From: an uncultured Chlorobiaceae bacterium | GTDB lineage: Bacteria; Bacteroidota; Chlorobiia; Chlorobiales; Chlorobiaceae | NCBI GenBank assembly: GCA_903824045.1 | Contig: CAIJVD010000031.1 | Span: forward strand, 1 to 34,499 | DNA: 34,499 nucleotides | Direction: 5' to 3' | Shown here: in pieces, positions 1 to 10,149 of the stretch | Layout: each line of letters begins with the position of its first letter | Position numbering within the stretch: position 1 is the stretch's first letter | Notes under the pieces: generated by a model | What the model was told of the DNA's origin: nothing | Database searches by the model: none | What the model saw: the letters and a program-made list of their open reading frames with translations, nothing else | Made by a program: the position numbers and the translations under genes

Positions 1-1098
1 AGCACCACTGTCCGAGCTGTACTGCCAAGTCGCGCCCGATTCCAGACCGGTAACATTCACGGTGCCGTTGCTGGTGATGCCGTCGGAGCTGCTGCTGCCG
101 CTGTCGGTCGCCAAAGCAATTGTCGGAGCCGCTGCGCTCGTATCCAGCACATATGCCTGGCTCAATGTTGTGGCAGTATTTCCCGCTGTATCCCTGACCT
201 CAAGCTTGATAGTGCTGCTGCCGGACAATGTTACGCCACTCCAGGTGATCGTTGTTCCGGAAACTTTAGTTGTTATATCCGTCCAGGTAACCCCGTTATC
301 GATTGAGCCATACAGCTTGTCTGTGCCAAGAGTCGCGCTTAGCGTGCCGGTGATGGTCTGGGAGGCAGTATTCGTAATAAAGTCTGATCCACTTGCCCCT
401 GTATCAGAACTGATATGCACTCCGCTTACTGTCGTCGTCGGCGCCGTCGAGTCAACGGTTATTGCTGAGGCTATCTTTCCGACCACGCTTGTGTTGCCTG
501 CAAGGTCGGTCTGGCGTACATGCACAGTGTTAGCTGAATAATTGCCGGCGGCCAGAGTGAAGCTTGTTCCTGTGCCGGTACTCCAGGAGCTGCCATTGTT
601 GGTGCTGTACTGCCAAGTCGCGCCCGATTCCAGACCGGTAACATTCACGGTGCCGTTGCTGGTGATGCCGTCGGAGCTGCTGCTGCCGCTGTCGGTCGCC
701 AAAGCAATTGTCGGGGTCGCTACCGTCGTGTCGACCAGATAGGAAGGGTTGTCAGCAACAGCACTGAATGTCAGCGTCGCATTAGTATTGGTAGATGTAT
801 CTTTAATTGAAGCGCCACCGGTCAGGCTGACGGAGCCCGCATTGATGCTGATACCGTTCGCATCGGCATCTCCTGAGCTGATGGTGTAGGTGAAAACCAA
901 TGTAGTCCCGGAGGATGCGGTCGCATCATACGTTGCCGTCTTAGACGTCGCGCCGATCAATAAATTCAGTGTTGGCGTCCTTGAGACCGTCACAGCGCTA
1001 CTCATTGTCACTGTTATGGATACGACATCGCCAGTATTCAATGAATTGTTCAGGATTCCAGACGCGCCGGTAATTGCTATTCCAGTTACACTTGCCAT
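1..1098 (-). CDS. Large Ig-like repeat adhesin, type I secretion cargo (partial, N-terminal part)
   Basis: An open frame of 366 codons runs from an ATG at 1098 off the left edge without a stop, so only the N-terminal part is visible. Residues about 1-120 form an SwmB/LapA-type beta-sandwich domain. A Ser/Thr/Gly/Asp-rich repeat follows, then a second type of Ig-like domain, then the first repeat again. I see no cysteine, no N-terminal signal peptide and no RTX nonapeptide in this part. These traits are usual for giant type I-secreted adhesins. An in-frame TAA lies 12 bases before the ATG, so the start cannot lie much further upstream; no Shine-Dalgarno sequence is evident. It is the last visible gene of the secretion operon, 129 bases after the 420-aa repeat protein. 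The adhesin role is inferred from repeats and neighbours. Confidence 0.8.
   Translation of the reverse strand, partial: MASVTGIAITGASGILNNSLNTGDVVSITVTMSSAVTVSRTPTLNLLIGATSKTATYDATASSGTTLVFTYTISSGDADANGISINAGSVSLTGGASIKDTSTNTNATLTFSAVADNPSYLVDTTVATPTIALATDSGSSSSDGITSNGTVNVTGLESGATWQYSTNNGSSWSTGTGTSFTLAAGNYSANTVHVRQTDLAGNTSVVGKIASAITVDSTAPTTTVSGVHISSDTGASGSDFITNTASQTITGTLSATLGTDKLYGSIDNGVTWTDITTKVSGTTITWSGVTLSGSSTIKLEVRDTAGNTATTLSQAYVLDTSAAAPTIALATDSGSSSSDGITSNGTVNVTGLESGATWQYSSDSGA
16..126. repeat. 111-bp perfect direct repeat, copy 1
   Basis: Bases 16-126 are identical to 604-714 (offset 588 bp), by direct comparison. Both copies lie in the same frame of the adhesin gene and encode the start of the same Ig-like repeat (TPTIALATDSGSSSSDG and onward). 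Confidence 0.95.
604..714. repeat. 111-bp perfect direct repeat, copy 2
   Basis: Identical to bases 16-126. Sequence flanking the repeat diverges at once (base 715 differs from base 127), so the identity is confined to this module. Nucleotide-level identity suggests recent duplication or gene conversion between adhesin repeats. Confidence 0.95.
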
Positions 1099-1227: not shown

Positions 1228-2490
1228 TCATAGGTAGAGTATTGCAAGCAGGCCGACTGCGCCCGCGCCAACAAAGATTGCGCCCTCCGGAATCCCTCCG
1301 GAATGGGCGCCGCTCTCGGCATAGGGGTCGACCCCTCCGCCGAATGCAAGGTTCCCGTCGAGGGTTGTTACAAGTCCTGTTGCATTGCTTGTGATGCTCT
1401 CCTGGGTGCCGTGAGCATCGGTGTAGCTGGCATGGACGGAAATCATTTTGCTGATTTGAGCTTCAGTGAGTAAAAGCCTGTCGTCGGTGGCGCCGGTGAT
1501 GGCCGCGCCATCGGCGTACCATTGGTAGTGAATGGTGCCGAGACCGTCGATATCCCCGAGGGTGTTGCTTGCTGACAATGTATGTGCCTGTGCCGGGGTG
1601 CCGGATATTGTTACGTTGCCAGTCGGGGGATCATTGACATTCTCGACGGTAGTTGTTGTGCTGCTGGCGACGCGCTCCTGGGTGCCGTGAGCGTCGGTGT
1701 AGCTGGCATGGACGGTAATGGCTTTGCCGACCTGCGCTTCGGTGAGAACCAGGGTGTCCGCGGAGGCTCCTGCGATTGCCGCTCCATCGGCGTACCAGAG
1801 GTAGCTGATAGCGCCCATGCCGTCCGCATCAGTAATGTCGTTGTGTGCTGTCAGCGTCTCGCCCTGCCTTGCGGTGCCTCTGATCGTTACATCTCCCATT
1901 GGAGGCTCGTTCCCTGGAAGTACGATTGCCGTCGGATTGCTGTTGACGCCCTCTGCCGTTCCGTGAAGGTCAGTGTATGCGGCCCTTACAGTGATGACCT
2001 TCCCCAATTCTGCACTGCTCAGAACTACTGTTTCGGAGGTTGCTCCGGCGCTATCAATGGCAACACCATCGGCATACCACAGGTAGCTTATGCTGCCCAT
2101 GCCGTCCGCATCGGTAATGGTGTTATGTGCTGTCAGCGTTTCGCCCTGCTTGAGCGCGCCGGTGATTGTTACGCTGCCTGCTGGTGCGTCGTTTGTGTTC
2201 GCCACGTGTTCTGTCCCGGTGCTGAGAACGCTTTCAGCCGTACCGCCCAGGTCGGTGTAGCTGCCCCTCACGGTAATGGCCTTGCCGACCTCAGACTCAT
2301 TGAGCATGAGAAAATCCGAGGTTGCCCCGGCTCCGTCAATGGCAACACCGTCTGCATACCACTGGTAGCTGATGGAGTTAATGCCATCGGCGTCTTCCAG
2401 TGTGTTTGCGGCGGTGAGTGTCTGGCCCTGAGCGGGAGTGCCGGTAATCGTCAAGCCGCCGGCAGGATGGGTGTTGGTAGCTGTAAACAT
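1228..2490 (-). CDS. Four-repeat Ig-like protein, probable type I secretion substrate
   Basis: 420 aa, complete. It consists of four tandem Ig-like repeats (about residues 12-101, 105-192, 199-287 and 291-375), each carrying a DADG-like acidic turn, a WYADG core and a later SYTD..GT.E strand. There is no cysteine and no signal peptide; the protein opens directly in a linker-like stretch (ATNTHPAG) resembling the one between repeats 1 and 2. The last 45 residues are not repeat: a Gly/Ser-rich spacer, then a hydrophobic end, GAIFVGAGAVGLLAILYL, with no basic residues after it. The gene lies 50 bases after the TolC-type gene, the last machinery gene, which fits a secreted or surface-retained cargo. 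The only in-frame start after the upstream TAA is the ATG at 2490; no Shine-Dalgarno sequence is clear. Exact function unknown. Confidence 0.85.
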   Translation of the reverse strand: MFTATNTHPAGGLTITGTPAQGQTLTAANTLEDADGINSISYQWYADGVAIDGAGATSDFLMLNESEVGKAITVRGSYTDLGGTAESVLSTGTEHVANTNDAPAGSVTITGALKQGETLTAHNTITDADGMGSISYLWYADGVAIDSAGATSETVVLSSAELGKVITVRAAYTDLHGTAEGVNSNPTAIVLPGNEPPMGDVTIRGTARQGETLTAHNDITDADGMGAISYLWYADGAAIAGASADTLVLTEAQVGKAITVHASYTDAHGTQERVASSTTTTVENVNDPPTGNVTISGTPAQAHTLSASNTLGDIDGLGTIHYQWYADGAAITGATDDRLLLTEAQISKMISVHASYTDAHGTQESITSNATGLVTTLDGNLAFGGGVDPYAESGAHSGGIPEGAIFVGAGAVGLLAILYL

Positions 2491-2540: not shown

Positions 2541-3911
2541 TCATAGCCTCTGGTGAGCCGGGCTGAACCACCCATTGATCTCTTCGATTTCAGTTTCCGA
2601 TAATGTGCCTGCGCTTTGCTTGAGCATGAGGTTGTTGAGAATGTACTGGTATCGAGACTTGGCAAGGTTCCGCCGGCTGGCAAGCAGCTTTTGCTCGGCA
2701 TCGAGTACATCGACATTGCTGCGCAGGCCGGCATCAAACCCTTTCCGGGTTCCTGTCAGGGCGATTTCCTGGGACTTCATGGCCTGGTCATAAGCATTGA
2801 TCTGGGCAATGCCGGTGGTTGTGCTGTTGAAATATTTGCGGACATCCGACACTACCCCGCGTTCCTGGCTGCTACGCAGTTCTCCTGCCTTCAGCAAACG
2901 GGCCTGCGCCTGACGGACAGCGGCACTGACATAGCCGCCGCTGTAGATCGGTACGCTGAGCTGAAGCCCGATTGAGTAGGTGTCGTAGGTGGAGCCGATG
3001 GAGTAGTTGTTTTCACTCTCCGAATAGTTTCTTCCAGCAACGAGCTCGATAGTCGGGTAACGGCCGGCCCGCTGTTTCTGAACATCGTGTTCAGCTATCC
3101 TGATCTCCTCTTTGGCGGCTGTCAGCGAGGGATTGGCGGAAAGGGCCATATCAATCCAAGTATCCACACTGGCAGGAGCGAGCGGCTGCAGTGTCATTTT
3201 TTCCGGGGCAAGCCTGCAGAGCTGCTCGGGATAGACCCCGATCAGCTCCTCAAGCTCACCGCGGGTGTACGCCACATTGCTCGAAATATCGAGCCCCTCG
3301 GCAATGGCCATGTCATGGTTGGCCTGTGACTCCTTAACCTCGGTAATAGTGCCAAGGCCATTTTCAAAACGCTTTTTGGCCTGCTGGAGCTGTTCCCGGG
3401 TGGCCTTGATGTGGGCCTGACTGAACTCCTGATTGTCCTCGGCATAGAGGGTATTGCAGTAGGCCTCGGTTATTCTGACAATGAGGTTCACCGTTTCTTT
3501 GCGAAGATCAGCATCACTTTTTGCAGCCGCTGCCTTGGCCTGTTTATACTCTGCCAGATTGGAAAGATTCAGGATGGACTGGCGTACCGTGATGCCGAAA
3601 TTGAGGGTATTGTAGGACTCAGGAGTGGAGATATACCCATGGAATCCATGCTGAGTCGCGTTGCGCCCCCGTCCTGCCGAGCTTCTGACGATCGGTCGAA
3701 ACTGGGCTCTGGCTTTGCCGATCTCTTCCTGGTTAATCTGATTGTCTGCCTGTGCCGCACGCAGTCGTGCGTCATAGCCGACGGCCCTTTTGTAGGCTGA
3801 GAGCAAATCGAACGTCTCGGCATGCGCCGGGCTTGCAAATACTATTTCTGTTGCAAGCAGTAATCGAATACAGTGCGTTCTCATCTGCCGGATCATTTTC
3901 TGGTTCATCAT
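2541..3911 (-). CDS. TolC-family outer-membrane channel of type I secretion
   Basis: 456 aa, close to the family norm. It begins with a signal peptide (basic MMNQKMIRQMRTHCIR, hydrophobic core, likely cleavage after SPAHA). Two outer-membrane efflux protein (OEP) repeats follow, with the long Gln/Ala/Lys-rich helices typical of the periplasmic tunnel. It should form the trimeric outer-membrane exit duct, engaged by the HlyD-type adaptor. The start is supported by GAGGAG upstream, which overlaps the stop codon of the adaptor gene only 5 bases away, suggesting translational coupling. A second ATG follows immediately (3908) and either could be used. Position between the adaptor and the cargo supports a dedicated channel rather than a general drug-efflux TolC. 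Confidence 0.92.
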   Translation of the reverse strand: MMNQKMIRQMRTHCIRLLLATEIVFASPAHAETFDLLSAYKRAVGYDARLRAAQADNQINQEEIGKARAQFRPIVRSSAGRGRNATQHGFHGYISTPESYNTLNFGITVRQSILNLSNLAEYKQAKAAAAKSDADLRKETVNLIVRITEAYCNTLYAEDNQEFSQAHIKATREQLQQAKKRFENGLGTITEVKESQANHDMAIAEGLDISSNVAYTRGELEELIGVYPEQLCRLAPEKMTLQPLAPASVDTWIDMALSANPSLTAAKEEIRIAEHDVQKQRAGRYPTIELVAGRNYSESENNYSIGSTYDTYSIGLQLSVPIYSGGYVSAAVRQAQARLLKAGELRSSQERGVVSDVRKYFNSTTTGIAQINAYDQAMKSQEIALTGTRKGFDAGLRSNVDVLDAEQKLLASRRNLAKSRYQYILNNLMLKQSAGTLSETEIEEINGWFSPAHQRL

Positions 3912-3916
3912 GGCGC

Positions 3917-5098
3917 CTACTCCTCTTTCATCGAGAGGTGAATCCTCTTGACCAGAGGATCGATCAGATAGGTCAGCAGAGAGCGCTCGCCGGTTTTGAT
4001 GACCACCTGAACCGGCATGCCCGGCTGCATCTGATGGCCTCCAAGCGACTTCATCCCTTCAGGCGTAACGGCAATCCGGGCAAGGTAATAGGACGAGGCC
4101 GGCTGTGCCGGATTGAGCGGTGGATCGGTCATAATGTCGCTTGAGAGCGATTCCACCTTGCCTTGCACGACAAGTTGCGGTGAGTGGGCAAACGAGGAGA
4201 AGCTGATGCTGACCGGAAGGCCCTTTCGAATGCTGTCGATAAGATGCGGCGCGATCTTTCCGTCGATGAGCAGCCCTTCATTGCCAGGTACTATATCCAT
4301 GATTTTCTGACCCGGCTGTATGACCGCTCCGACGGTCTGTACCTGAAGCCCGACAACCTGCCCTGATGCCGGAGAGCGTATCTCCGTATCAGCAAGTTCC
4401 CCGGCAAGTGCCCTTGTTTTTTCTGCGTCGGAATCCACTTCGCGCTGCATCTGCGCAAGCTCGGCCGCGGTATTGCTTCGTATCTCCGAGATTTTGAGTT
4501 CCATCTCCCGCTGCTGGGTTCTGGGCGCGTATCCTTCTCGGACAAGCGCAGCAATCCCCGCCAGCTGTTCTTTGAGAATGCCGAGCGTCATGCGGCGCGA
4601 ACGGAAAAGCTCCTGCTGGTTCTGCATCTGCCGGTGTGCAAGTTCCCTGTCGGGATCGTTCAGGATGTCTCTGTGAAAGGCAATGGATCCGGCACCGCGA
4701 AGTTCGGCAGAGAGCCTGTCGGCAGTAGCCCGTATGCCGAGGTAGTGCTCATGCACCTCATCGTAGCGGGCTTTGGCCGTCTGCTTGTCGAGGGTGACGA
4801 GCACCTCTCCCTGCCGGACCATCTCCCCCTCTTTGACCTGTACCTTTTCGATTCTCCCTCCTCTCAGGTTTTCGACGACCTTGCGTTTGGTGGCAATGCT
4901 GACCACTCCCTGACACGGAACACCTTCGTCAAGCGGCGCGAGTGCCGCCCAGAGCAGGAACCCGCCGAATCCTGCCAGCAGAATCCAGATGCCGAGACGG
5001 ATGGGGGTTCGTGTATCGCGATATGCTGTGCCGGGCGAGCTTACGGGTTGCCAGGGCCTGAAAGGGTTTGTCAGTGTTCGGCTGTTGAGAGTACTCAT
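3917..5098 (-). CDS. HlyD-family membrane fusion protein of type I secretion
   Basis: 393 aa from the ATG at 5098. A cytoplasmic N-terminus of about 33 residues is followed by one membrane helix (about 34-54) and a first biotinyl-lipoyl half (about 60-105, with NLRGGRIEKVQVKEGEMV). A long helical hairpin (about 105-245) and a C-terminal lipoyl/beta-barrel part follow (with RSPASGQVVGL and PGMPVQVVIKTGERS). It bridges the inner-membrane ABC transporter and the TolC-type channel. The frame stays open to 5215, but that would overlap the upstream ATPase gene and add about 39 residues not expected in the family. ATG 5098 leaves 49 bases after the ATPase stop. No strong Shine-Dalgarno sequence is seen. 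Confidence 0.93.
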   Translation of the reverse strand: MSTLNSRTLTNPFRPWQPVSSPGTAYRDTRTPIRLGIWILLAGFGGFLLWAALAPLDEGVPCQGVVSIATKRKVVENLRGGRIEKVQVKEGEMVRQGEVLVTLDKQTAKARYDEVHEHYLGIRATADRLSAELRGAGSIAFHRDILNDPDRELAHRQMQNQQELFRSRRMTLGILKEQLAGIAALVREGYAPRTQQREMELKISEIRSNTAAELAQMQREVDSDAEKTRALAGELADTEIRSPASGQVVGLQVQTVGAVIQPGQKIMDIVPGNEGLLIDGKIAPHLIDSIRKGLPVSISFSSFAHSPQLVVQGKVESLSSDIMTDPPLNPAQPASSYYLARIAVTPEGMKSLGGHQMQPGMPVQVVIKTGERSLLTYLIDPLVKRIHLSMKEE

Positions 5099-5147
5099 GA
5101 TGGTGGCTTGGTAACTGTTAACTAAACGGTACAAAGGTTTTTTTTGG

Positions 5148-6854
5148 TTATGCGGCGGCAGCCTGCTGGCCCGCAGTAACCTCGTATTGGGGTCCGAACC
5201 GGACAATCCGTCCATCCTGCATCACTGCGACCAGATCGGCAATGGCAACGACATCCGGCCGGTGGGTGACAAGAATCACGGTTTTTCCGGCGGCCTTCAG
5301 CTCCGCAACAGCTTTGAGCAGTGAGTGCTCGCCGGCATCATCGAGGTTGGCATTGGGTTCATCGAGAACAATAATGGCAGGGTTGCCGTAGAGCGCACGG
5401 GCAAGGCCAAGCCGCTGCCGCTGTCCGCCCGAAAGCATTCCGCCGGCCTCACCAATCAGGGTGTCGTATCCGTTCGGAAAGCGCAGGATTATCTCGTGGA
5501 TGCCGGTGCGCCGGGCAGCTTCGATCACTTTCATTGAATTCACTTCGGAAAAACGGGCGATGTTTTCAGCAATCGTCCCGTCGAACAACTCGATATCTTG
5601 CGGGAGATAGCCGATATGCGGCCCCAGCTCTTGCCGGTTCCAGCTTTCAACTGGCTCTCCGTCGATGAGTACCCGGCCCTCACGGTTCGGCCAGACTCCA
5701 AGTATGCAGCGAACGAGTGTGGATTTTCCTGAGCCCGACGGGCCAAGAACGACAACCGTTTTGCCGGCAGGAAAGATGGCGTGAAGGTCATTCAGGAGAG
5801 GGGCCGAACGTCCCGGCGCCATTGCCGTGAGCGCGTCGAGCCGGATCTCCCCGATCGGATCCTGACGGGGTCGCTGCGGCCTCTGCACGGGAAATTCGTC
5901 AAGAAGTTTTTCAAGGCGCAGGAATGCCGTCCGGGCCTGGATGAAGGGTTTCCATGTGGCGACGACAAGGTCGAGCGGTGCCAGCGCTTTCGACATCAGC
6001 ACATTGGCCGCGATCATCGAGCCGGCACTCATCTTCCCCTCAATTACCAGCATAGCCCCCGCTCCCAGCGTCAGCGACTGCATGCAGTAGCGCACAAACT
6101 TTGAAAATACCTGATGGCGCTGCTGCCGAGCGCTGGATGATTCGGCTTTGGCCAGCGACGCCTCATGCAGTTTTGACCAGTTCACCCTGAGCCTTTCCTG
6201 CATGCCCATTGCCTGTATCGGCTCGATATTCCTCAGCTTCCCCTGCAGATACCGGTTGCTGTCTTCACTTGCCACAGATGCGCGCTCTATCTCTTTGGTG
6301 CTCATCCGGTGGGTTTGCCGCGTTATGGCAAGCTGAATAAGGGCAAAAAGGATGGAGAGCCAGCCAAGAAACGGGTTGAGCACAAAAATCACCCCGATAT
6401 AGAGAGGCGTCCAGGGGGTGTCGAAAAAAGCAATGATGCCGCTGCCCGTCAGAAACTGCCGGATATTGGTCAGATCCGCGAATGCCTCGCCGGCGTTTTG
6501 ACGGGCCCGTTTCAGGTAGGCCTCGAAACTTGCCGTGAAAACCAGTGCATTGAGATTTTCGTCAAGCCTGACGCCTGCACGGACGAGTATGCGTGAACGG
6601 AGCCACTCAGCAACCGTCATCACTCCATAGAAAAGCACCAGAAAGATCGTTACCATCAGGAGTGTCAGTTCACTCCCGCTTTTCAGGACGCGGCCGTATA
6701 GCTGAAGCATGTAGATGGTTGGCGTCAGCATGAGCACATTGGCGATCATGCTGAAAATCCCTACCCAAAAAAATTCACGGCGAAACAACCAGAGCTGCCG
6801 GGTGAGAATGCTTCGGTCAAAGAGATCAGGTCTCATTGGAGGTTTGTTTTCCAT
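5148..6854 (-). CDS. Type I secretion ABC transporter, PrtD-type (second of pair)
   Basis: 568 aa from the ATG at 6854. The N-terminal half is an ABC transmembrane domain with the PrtD-type opening (LMLTPTIYMLQLYGRVLKSG). The ATPase half has Walker A GPSGSGKST (about residue 370), Q-loop GYLPQDIELFDGTIAENI, signature LSGGQRQRLGLARAL, Walker B IIVLDEPNANLD and switch histidine THRPD. All key residues are intact. No C39 peptidase or C39-like domain precedes the membrane domain, which fits PrtD rather than bacteriocin exporters or HlyB. A GTG at 6899 would extend it by 15 residues into the upstream gene; the ATG, 11 bases after that gene's stop, is preferred. It probably powers cargo export, as a homodimer or paired with the neighbouring ATPase. 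Confidence 0.93.
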   Translation of the reverse strand: MENKPPMRPDLFDRSILTRQLWLFRREFFWVGIFSMIANVLMLTPTIYMLQLYGRVLKSGSELTLLMVTIFLVLFYGVMTVAEWLRSRILVRAGVRLDENLNALVFTASFEAYLKRARQNAGEAFADLTNIRQFLTGSGIIAFFDTPWTPLYIGVIFVLNPFLGWLSILFALIQLAITRQTHRMSTKEIERASVASEDSNRYLQGKLRNIEPIQAMGMQERLRVNWSKLHEASLAKAESSSARQQRHQVFSKFVRYCMQSLTLGAGAMLVIEGKMSAGSMIAANVLMSKALAPLDLVVATWKPFIQARTAFLRLEKLLDEFPVQRPQRPRQDPIGEIRLDALTAMAPGRSAPLLNDLHAIFPAGKTVVVLGPSGSGKSTLVRCILGVWPNREGRVLIDGEPVESWNRQELGPHIGYLPQDIELFDGTIAENIARFSEVNSMKVIEAARRTGIHEIILRFPNGYDTLIGEAGGMLSGGQRQRLGLARALYGNPAIIVLDEPNANLDDAGEHSLLKAVAELKAAGKTVILVTHRPDVVAIADLVAVMQDGRIVRFGPQYEVTAGQQAAAA

Positions 6855-6865
6855 GTTACATGTTG

Positions 6866-8608
6866 TTAATTCAGTGCCCCGCGTCGTCCTGACGGGCACG
6901 AGGAGGCTGTCGGCGGAGACTGCAGGGCTTCAAGCACCTCCCTGCATGTGCCTAACCGCTGGATCTGTCCGTCAACAAGCAGCAGCATGTGCTCGATTGC
7001 GCTGATAATGTTCAGCCGGTGGGTGATGACGATCACCGTCGTACCTCTCTGCCGCAAGAGCTTTACGGCATTGATGAGCGCGGCATCACCGGCTTCGTCG
7101 AGGCTTGCATTCGGCTCATCGAGCACGACAAGCTTCGGCATGCCGTAGAGTGCACGGGCAAGTGCGATGCGCTGGCGTTCGCCACCGGAAAGCAGTGAAC
7201 CCTCTTCGCCCACCCGAGTCTCGTAGCCGTCCGGCAGCTGGGCAATGAAGCTTTCAAGTCCGACCATTTTGCATGCCTCGGAAAGTTTCTGTTTATCAGG
7301 CTCTCCGAACCGTGAGATATTCTCCGCGATGCTTCCTTCGAACAGCTCCACACTCTGCGGCAGATAGCCAACATGCTGGCCAAGTTCATCCTTGTTCCAC
7401 TGATAGAGGTCGTTTCCGTCAAGCCGTACCTTGCCCTGCGCGGCGGGCCATATTCCAGTAAGCAGTCTTGCCAGTGTTGTTTTTCCCGACGCCGATGGTC
7501 CCACGATAGCCAGTGACCCTCCGGGTGCGACCCTGAAGCTTACACCCCTGAGAATCTGTATCTGGCTCCTTGGCGCTCCCGCAATGACCCCCTCAACTGA
7601 AAGCAAGCCTGTCGGGGGCGGCAGCGCCATTTTCTTTTCCGGGAGCGGAAACTCCCTGAGGAGTATATCCAGGCGGCGGAATGCCTCCAGAGCCTCTTCA
7701 GTCTGGCGCCAGTTTCCGATGATCTGCACAAGCGGGGAGAGCACCTTGCCTCCGAGAATCGAGCCGACAATCATGCCGGAACCATGCAGCTCGCCCTTCA
7801 TCGTCAGCCAGCATCCAACACCGAGCAATAGAGAGCTCAACAGGTTTTGCACCAGTTTCGAGAGAACAGCATTGGTTCCGGCGTGATCGGAGGCGGTTGC
7901 CTGTGAGAGAAGAAACTCCTGCTGCAGAGCCGACCATCGCCTATGGATATCCGGTGCCATTCCCATCGACTCGATCACCTGCGCGTTGCGGATGACCTCA
8001 TCGGCATAGCCTTGAGAGATCATTGCACTGCGGTTTGCGGCCAGAAGCGGCAAGCCAATGCGCCGTTCATTGAGAGTTCCGATCCCGAACTGAAGCAGCG
8101 CGCCGGCAACGGCAAACCAGCCCAGCATTGGGTTCATCAGAAAAAGAATCACCAGGACAAGCATGGCGAAAGGGGTATCGAGAATCGCCAGAAAAGCTGG
8201 CGAAGGAAGAAACTCTCGCAGTGTTTTGAGGTCGCGCAGTGCTTGCGGCCCTGCAGCGGGAAAGTTTTTCGTGCGCGCCGAAAAAACCGAGGCAAACAGA
8301 GGGTCACGAACGTTTCTGTCAAGCTCCACTCCGGCATGCTGCATGATCTGATGGCGTACCCACTCGAGAGATTCAAGCAGCATGTATGCGCCAGCGACAG
8401 CTATCGTCAGCATCAGAAGAGTCGTATGGCTCTGGCTGTTTACCACCCGGTCATAGACCTCCATCATGTAGGCGCTTGGCGAAAGGACCAGCACATTGAT
8501 GAAGACCCCGAAAAAGAGCGTCTGATTAATGGCGGGAATCCTTGAGATGAGGGCTTCGCGCAGGGGAGAGTTTTCGTTGAATTTTTTCACGGCTCTCAAT
8601 GGATGCAC
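6866..8608 (-). CDS. Type I secretion ABC transporter, PrtD-type (first of pair)
   Basis: 580 aa, first gene of the secretion operon. PrtD-type membrane domain (LVLSPSAYMMEVYDRVVNSQ) followed by an ATPase domain with Walker A GPSASGKTT, Q-loop GYLPQSVELFEGSIAENI, signature LSGGERQRIALARAL, Walker B LVVLDEPNASLDEAG and THRLNI. No peptidase domain. It resembles its neighbour throughout but is clearly divergent, so the pair is not a recent duplication. The longest start is GTG at 8608. A second GTG at 8590 has a better-placed GAGAG and gives an N-terminus MKKFNENSPLREAL, so the true start is uncertain by six codons. Both proteins keep all catalytic motifs, so neither looks like a degenerate partner. 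Confidence 0.92.
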   Translation of the reverse strand: MHPLRAVKKFNENSPLREALISRIPAINQTLFFGVFINVLVLSPSAYMMEVYDRVVNSQSHTTLLMLTIAVAGAYMLLESLEWVRHQIMQHAGVELDRNVRDPLFASVFSARTKNFPAAGPQALRDLKTLREFLPSPAFLAILDTPFAMLVLVILFLMNPMLGWFAVAGALLQFGIGTLNERRIGLPLLAANRSAMISQGYADEVIRNAQVIESMGMAPDIHRRWSALQQEFLLSQATASDHAGTNAVLSKLVQNLLSSLLLGVGCWLTMKGELHGSGMIVGSILGGKVLSPLVQIIGNWRQTEEALEAFRRLDILLREFPLPEKKMALPPPTGLLSVEGVIAGAPRSQIQILRGVSFRVAPGGSLAIVGPSASGKTTLARLLTGIWPAAQGKVRLDGNDLYQWNKDELGQHVGYLPQSVELFEGSIAENISRFGEPDKQKLSEACKMVGLESFIAQLPDGYETRVGEEGSLLSGGERQRIALARALYGMPKLVVLDEPNASLDEAGDAALINAVKLLRQRGTTVIVITHRLNIISAIEHMLLLVDGQIQRLGTCREVLEALQSPPTASSCPSGRRGALN

Positions 8609-8943: not shown

Positions 8944-10149
8944 TCAGGTTGGCGCGGAGGAAGGCTCTTTTTTGCGGAAGTCGATTTTCAGCCACTCCTC
9001 TTCGTATCCGGCTTCGGCTACCCGCATGCCGGCAAGAAAGAGCGGGAGGATGACACCTTTCTGGTAGTTGCCAATCCTGACGCTCATGGAGTCGCCGACC
9101 TGCATGACTTTGGCTTCCATGCGGTTGTCGAAGACGAAGGGGAGTCGGAGTTTCATCACGTAGTGTCCCTCGCTGATTTTCGTGATGAGGGTGTGCTCCT
9201 CATGGAAGAAGATGTCTATCGGGTCTTTCCCTTTATAAACCAGGTCGCCCACGATTTTCAGCATCTCTAGACCGAGCACTTCGCGCTTGAAGAGCGGCAC
9301 TCTGGTGATCGGAATCGGGGCGAAGGAGCGTTCGATCTGCTCGAGGTATTTTTTCTGGATGGTTTTCCACTCGTCGAAGTAGGCCCCGTCCACCTCATCC
9401 ATGTAGACGCGGTTGATCACCACCTGGTCCACGGTGATGCCGTAGAGGTTGAGGTAGGTAAGCGCCCGCATCGACTCCTTCACGACCATTTTTTCCGGGT
9501 TCATCACAAGGCGTACGGTGGTTCTGGTGCCGTCGGAGAGAAGCTCGACGATTCCCTCAATCGACGAGAAGAGGTGGTCTATCTGGTCGTAGACATCGAC
9601 GTCGGGTACCATGTCGTGCAATCGCCCGATCCGTTTCGAGAGAGGGCGGATCATCGGCTTGACCACATACTTCTCAAGGTTCCGCATCAGTTTGAGCATC
9701 CAGCCGAAGGTCTCGGGCAGGGAGAGCAGGCGCAGCGTTTCGCCGGTCGGCGCGCAGTCGACCACCAGGAGGTCGTACTCCTTCGACTCGTTGTAGCGCT
9801 TGATGTAGGAGAGGGAGAAGAGCTCCTCCATGCCGGGCAGAACGCCCATCTCCTCGACATAGATTCCCTTGATGCCCTGCACCTCCATGAGGTGCGCGAA
9901 GTGTTCCCGCACGATCTCCCAGTTGAGCGAGAGGTCGCCGTAGACGCTTACCTCCTGACCCCAGAGGTTGTCGGCGATTTTGAGGGGAGTAGGGCCGAGC
10001 TCAATGTCGAACGAGTCCCCGAGGCTGTGCGCCGGATCGGTTGAAATGATGAGGGTCCTGTATCCCATTGATGCCGCCTTGACGGCGGTCGCCGCGGCAA
10101 TCGAGGTTTTGCCGACACCCCCCTTCCCTGTGAAAACGATGTTTCTCAT
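8944..10149 (-). CDS. ArsA/Get3-family ATPase with C-terminal alpha-crystallin-like domain (Get3d-like)
   Basis: 401 aa. It has a deviant Walker A GKGGVGKT (residues 8-15), switch I DPAHSLGD (38-45) and A-loop/switch [10 protein letters not shown] (131-138), the signature of the ArsA/Get3 ATPases. After the ATPase core, residues about 320-392 form a beta-rich segment ([10 protein letters not shown] through EEEWLKIDF) matching the ArsA HSP20-like domain found in Get3d of cyanobacteria and chloroplasts. Only one ATPase half is present and no arsenite pump or arsenic regulator is nearby, so arsenic export is unlikely. A role in handling hydrophobic or membrane-bound client proteins is inferred by homology. 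It sits last in a minus-strand series, 87 bases after the nitroreductase gene. Confidence 0.88.

Follow-up and report, generated by a model that had tools for sequence, protein, structure and literature searches.

A 420-aa protein encoded in the window, i.e., the whole 34,499-nucleotide stretch analysed here, which forms contig C31 of a 2.09 Mb genome assembled in 37 contigs and placed in the GTDB genus of Chlorobium ferrooxidans, ends with one copy of a conserved C-terminal module. This module is undescribed. We estimate at roughly 0.6 the probability that it is a modular export signal, by which Sec-independent surface or secreted proteins of Chlorobiaceae would enter a dedicated PrtDb-PrtDa-HlyD-TolC type I secretion system (T1SS). 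The tail is probably an export label, since it is shared by about 100 otherwise unrelated proteins, occurs in Chlorobiaceae only, and travels with one export machine. A lineage-specific type I secretion signal thus appears to be the best explanation of the sequence data, with surface retention as its main rival or as a second role of the tail. The earlier note on this DNA had proposed that the tail may be a signal for type I secretion or for retention, specific to this lineage. Its lineage restriction and its link to a T1SS of PrtD type are borne out by our results, while the sequence IPEGAIF, which had been taken for its motif, is private to the 420-aa protein, and the conserved part is DPYA...GVGxLGLLAW-xxx.

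The C-terminus of the 420-aa open reading frame (ORF) is GGGVDPYAESGAHSGGIPEGAIFVGAGAVGLLAILYL-stop (coordinates of this and other features are collected in Table 1). Lysine and arginine are absent throughout the tail region, and the initial description of the tail as uncharged applies to its last 17-18 residues only, as the spacer contains D and E. The four repeats initially seen in this protein correspond to four stretches matched by the ZirU_fam model. When the 39-aa window tail alone was used as a query against 65 genomes of the same genus, other Chlorobium proteins were matched (E down to 7.7e-5), and in nearly all of them, at very different protein sizes, the stop codon follows the shared motif at a nearly constant distance, which places the tail well above chance. 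Three matches of this search (L013, L035, and L036), as well as L242, were rejected as false.

Table 1. Features of the window relevant to the C-terminal tail and its predicted transporter
Feature	Position	Strand	Basis and remarks
Large adhesin, start only	1..1098	(-)	Big_13 repeats; no signal peptide; C-terminus beyond contig end
420-aa tail-bearing protein	1228..2490	(-)	Contains four ZirU/Ig-like repeats; lacks an N-terminal Sec signal
C-terminal tail	1228..1365	(-)	Last 45 codons and stop of the 420-aa ORF; spacer, DPYA, hydrophobic end
Hydrophobic terminal segment GAIFVGAGAVGLLAILYL	1231-1284	(-)	Followed by stop
DPYA within Gly/Ser spacer	1318-1329	(-)	Family alignments
TolC-family outer membrane channel	2541..3911	(-)	TIGR01844, E 4e-97
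HlyD-family T1SS periplasmic adaptor	3917..5215	(-)	TIGR01843, E 6e-83
PrtDa, T1SS ABC half-transporter	5148..6899	(-)	TIGR01842, 654 bits vs. cut-off 510; Walker A GPSGSGKS; ORF start uncertain, overlaps both neighbours
PrtDb, another, diverged T1SS ABC half-transporter in tandem with PrtDa	6866..8608	(-)	TIGR01842, 621 bits; GPSASGKT, LSGGERQR, Walker B intact
Get3/ArsA-type ATPase	8944-10149		ArsA_HSP20 domain; directly upstream of PrtDb

The module consists of (A)DPYA, a Gly/Ser spacer, the sequence G-V-G-x-L-G-L-L-A-W, and three hydrophobic residues that are followed directly by the stop. In an alignment of 27 tails (consensus xADPYAxxxxxxGxSTGxxLxGVGALGLLAWLxL), residues P, G, G, L, and A are invariant, and D, Y, A, and W nearly so; the tails of genus g2 have an AAVAATGG-like sequence in place of DPYA and keep the terminal end. 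Among 64 tails, tryptophan stands exactly three residues from the end in 51, and an aromatic residue four from the stop in 9, while the final three residues are hydrophobic in all (L, V, A, I, or F, with a single W, Y, or M). The window copy is divergent, with I (LLAILYL) at the position of this tryptophan. K and R are absent from the final 18 residues of all 64 tails, and D or E occurs there in 15 only, near the start of the stretch. The hydrophobic segment, about 17 residues long, is of membrane strength (mean Kyte-Doolittle value of 2.08 over 18 residues) and is rich in small residues with a GxxxG-like spacing. The pooled dN/dS of about 0.18 for the last 20 codons, calculated for 24 non-independent pairs of related tails, is indicative of purifying selection, i.e., the protein sequence of the tail has been kept. 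A chance hydrophobic end was rejected on account of the homology of tails and of purifying selection.

A profile of 61 tails, of which the window tail is one (E 7.3e-9 against this profile), gave about 110 matches in 50 of the 98 Chlorobia genomes, all of them Chlorobiaceae: 39/65 in genus g1 and 11/21 in genus g2, vs. 0/12 in other families of the class. Genomes with the tail include those of Chlorobium ferrooxidans DSM 13031 (G003) and Chlorobaculum sp. (G072). In addition, 84,980 prokaryote species were scanned with a DNA pattern describing the hydrophobic core and the stop behind it. The scan gave 60 matches; all 46 matches in Chlorobiaceae were true terminal tails, and the other 14 were not tail-like on reading. 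This pattern misses variants, the window's own included, because it requires W with exactly three residues after it. The tail thus recurs across relatives, and the lineage specificity suspected in the earlier note agrees with both searches. No significant match to Pfam or NCBIfam models was found for the 27 tails. The model GVDTG_CTERM (NF058571), followed up after an E value of 0.19 for one member, was rejected, as its best score was 16.5 bits vs. the curated cut-off of 29, with no genome above it. We found no description of the tail in the open-access literature on C-terminal sorting in green sulfur bacteria and on hydrophobic T1SS tails.

The tail-bearing proteins range from about 190 to 5,700 aa and have little in common beyond the tail. 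Their bodies comprise Ig-like, Big_5, SWM_repeat, cadherin, RTX, VCBS, DUF4347, and serralysin-type metalloprotease domains. An equal occurrence of the tail on cytosolic proteins, which would speak against a secretion signal, was not found, as the bearers examined have bodies of extracellular types. With a simple heuristic rule, which is not equivalent to SignalP, a Sec signal was indicated in only 1 of 46 complete bearers, in a DUF4347-like start judged to be false, compared with 33/35 TolC controls; the N-terminal starts of the bearers are of the type MATYNYTGTTGADSVSL. One of the bearers in Chlorobium ferrooxidans is a serralysin-like metalloprotease with Big_5 (L156:656-2305), and similar proteins are encoded in two related genomes (L216 and L231). 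Relatives of this metalloprotease are classical PrtD substrates. The window's genome encodes also a tail-bearing protein of 3,284 aa (contig C15), and the open frames of other large bearers elsewhere have 3,219 to 5,702 aa.

The genes of the window follow the order PrtDb-PrtDa-HlyD-TolC-tail protein-large adhesin, and each of them is encoded on the minus strand. The PrtD genes occur as a tandem pair in nearly every genome that has PrtDs, with the Walker A lysine and Walker B glutamate kept in both products. That two diverged PrtDs stand in tandem and have been retained as a pair across Chlorobiaceae suggests that the transporter of this PrtD-type T1SS may be a heterodimer of PrtDa and PrtDb. 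The RtxB/RtxE T1SS likewise has two different ABC half-transporters encoded at a single locus; in contrast to that system, both ABC proteins are here of PrtD type and without a C39-like domain, and some neighbouring substrates carry the tail.

Results of our analysis associate the tail with this particular transporter. Of 86 Chlorobiaceae genomes, 45 have both the tail and tandem PrtD, 4 the tail only, 12 PrtD only, and 25 neither (p=6.5e-9); the respective numbers for genus g2 are 11, 0, 2, and 8. Because related genomes are treated in these counts as independent, the p-values are optimistic, and adjacency of the genes in two genera together with the contrast to another T1SS are the stronger arguments. 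The earlier note had suggested a check of whether such genes lie beside those of PrtD-type transporters: 13 tail genes, including that of the window, are within 5 kb of 12 PrtD operons, often directly upstream, with 0.6 expected. In contrast, no tail gene was found near about 30 loci of LssB-type T1SS, no tail was on the same contig as any of the LssB-type loci compared, and the genome co-occurrence with this type was slightly negative; the LssB-type T1SS was therefore rejected as a partner of the tail. Among the four genomes with a tail and no PrtD over the cut-off, one (G023) has a piece of PrtDa (80% identity) cut by a contig end, and in the remaining three (G013, G046, and G056), which are draft assemblies of 85-98% completeness, PrtD was not found. 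In several of the 12 genomes with PrtD and no tail detected at E 1e-3, the RTX proteins sampled end otherwise, e.g., with DIHIIA; hence, not all T1SS substrates of Chlorobiaceae need the tail.

How the tail could act as an export signal may be modelled on PrtD-type systems elsewhere, which recognise an exposed C-terminal hydrophobic motif. The transporter would recognise the exposed hydrophobic C-terminus of the tail, namely the aromatic and three hydrophobic residues before the stop, presented on the Gly/Ser linker, and the unfolded protein would then be threaded out with its C-terminus first. Here, we infer that recognition rests on the tail itself, that the tail stays uncleaved, and that PrtDa and PrtDb form one heterodimer. 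The mostly fixed distance between the aromatic residue and the stop fits the recognition of a free end. Substrates of PrtD-type systems have been reported to need an exposed COOH-terminal motif of an acidic and three hydrophobic residues, and one added terminal residue impaired the secretion of such a substrate (PMC2642768); according to another report, as cited in the same paper, the motif is non-essential. Tail proteins share with PrtD-type substrates the lack of a Sec signal, linkage to or co-occurrence with PrtD/HlyD/TolC, and an exposed hydrophobic C-terminus. The acidic residue that directly precedes the terminal hydrophobic residues in PrtD-type substrates is missing in the tails, where W-xxx or a similar sequence is present, so the tail resembles PrtD-type signals without having their every feature. 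Like the tail, the signals of PrtG, AprA, HasA, and LipA/TliA have exposed terminal hydrophobic residues, their proteins have no Sec signal, and their genes adjoin those of PrtD-HlyD-TolC. However, these signals are short and weakly conserved, whereas the tail, a homologous module some 35 residues long, comprises DPYA, a linker, and a 17-residue hydrophobic segment, is common to many unrelated proteins of one bacterial family, and is associated with a tandem PrtD pair. The length of this segment, exceeding the classical motif of 3-4 residues, counts against the function of the tail as an export signal.

The same length, sufficient to span a membrane, and the GxxxG-like spacing of small residues would fit a function of the tail in retention, i.e., as an anchor. 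In such a case, the proteins would be exported by the T1SS owing to other cues, and the hydrophobic end would then hold them on the cell, either within a membrane or the channel or through self-association of the helix rich in small residues. The adhesin-like character of many bearers and the existence of PrtD genomes without tails also favour this explanation, which we regard as the most serious of the alternatives, if unlikely. On the other hand, a protease bears the tail as well, the C-terminal end of T1SS substrates leaves the cell first, outer membranes do not usually contain alpha-helical anchors, and the known T1SS adhesins are kept on the cell by a plug at their N-terminus. Tail proteins may also be exported first and retained afterwards.

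Targeting of the tail to another partner appears improbable. The Get3/ArsA-type ATPase gene, which in the window lies upstream of PrtDb at a distance of about 336 bp, might suggest that the tail is inserted as a tail anchor into the inner membrane, but none of the other tail or PrtD loci fetched has this gene beside it, and Get3 was rejected as a partner. Moreover, Get3-dependent tail-anchored proteins have a cytosolic body and a C-terminal anchor, while the bodies of tail-bearing proteins (Ig-like, cadherin, RTX, and serralysin) are of extracellular types. The tail could alternatively target the DUF3570 outer membrane protein, as tail genes are located near genes of DUF3570 and/or ApbE in 18 genomes, in 13 of which 4-150 bp separate the tail stop and ApbE (genomes counted by hand); many bearers, however, have no DUF3570 in the surrounding sequence fetched. 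Such clusters often include also DsbD and thioredoxin (e.g., L143:207-5135, L284:162-5356, L024, L028, and L124). It has been shown that ApbE flavinylates DUF3570 of Chlorobium luteolum, in passages that make no mention of a tail protein (PMC8238504). The recurrence of tail proteins in the DUF3570-ApbE-DsbD-thioredoxin clusters of Chlorobiaceae suggests that they may be secreted partners of the DUF3570-ApbE extracellular redox system.

Although the general plan of motif, spacer, and hydrophobic segment on many unrelated proteins is shared by the tail with PEP-CTERM, GlyGly-CTERM, MYXO-CTERM, and LPXTG, processing of the tail as a Sec-dependent sorting tag, whether by an exosortase, a rhombosortase, or a sortase-like enzyme, is highly improbable, and a Sec/exosortase-type tag was rejected, in agreement with the initial placement of the tail outside the PEP-CTERM/LPXTG type, as the bearers have no credible Sec signals and no basic C-terminal cluster, NCBIfam CTERM models gave no significant match, and exosortase co-occurrence was not observed (11/27/11/16, p=0.43).

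Type I secretion signals are as a rule poorly conserved, which makes their recognition hard to study. A conserved modular tail tied to one transporter provides a natural alignment of about 100 signals, lets likely substrates be read from genomes across a whole bacterial family, and opens recognition by a PrtD-type pair to direct testing. It further draws attention to a group of surface proteins associated with flavin-redox clusters and with adhesion in green sulfur bacteria, among which are members of consortia with other bacteria. A wider scenario, rather doubtful when taken as a whole, is that a heterodimeric PrtD T1SS has acquired its own transferable, conserved tag, which would both export proteins and hold them on the surface and would serve to build extracellular flavin-redox and adhesion layers in green sulfur bacteria.

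Besides the operon in the window, the same genome has a second PrtD-pair operon and a separate LssB-type T1SS (G000:C10 and G000:C12; L145 and L149), the latter adjoining a large repeat protein without the tail. The repeats of the large adhesin encoded next to the 420-aa protein match tail-bearing proteins in four loci (L198, L095, L102, and L144) and also RTX proteins with other ends (L253 and L268).
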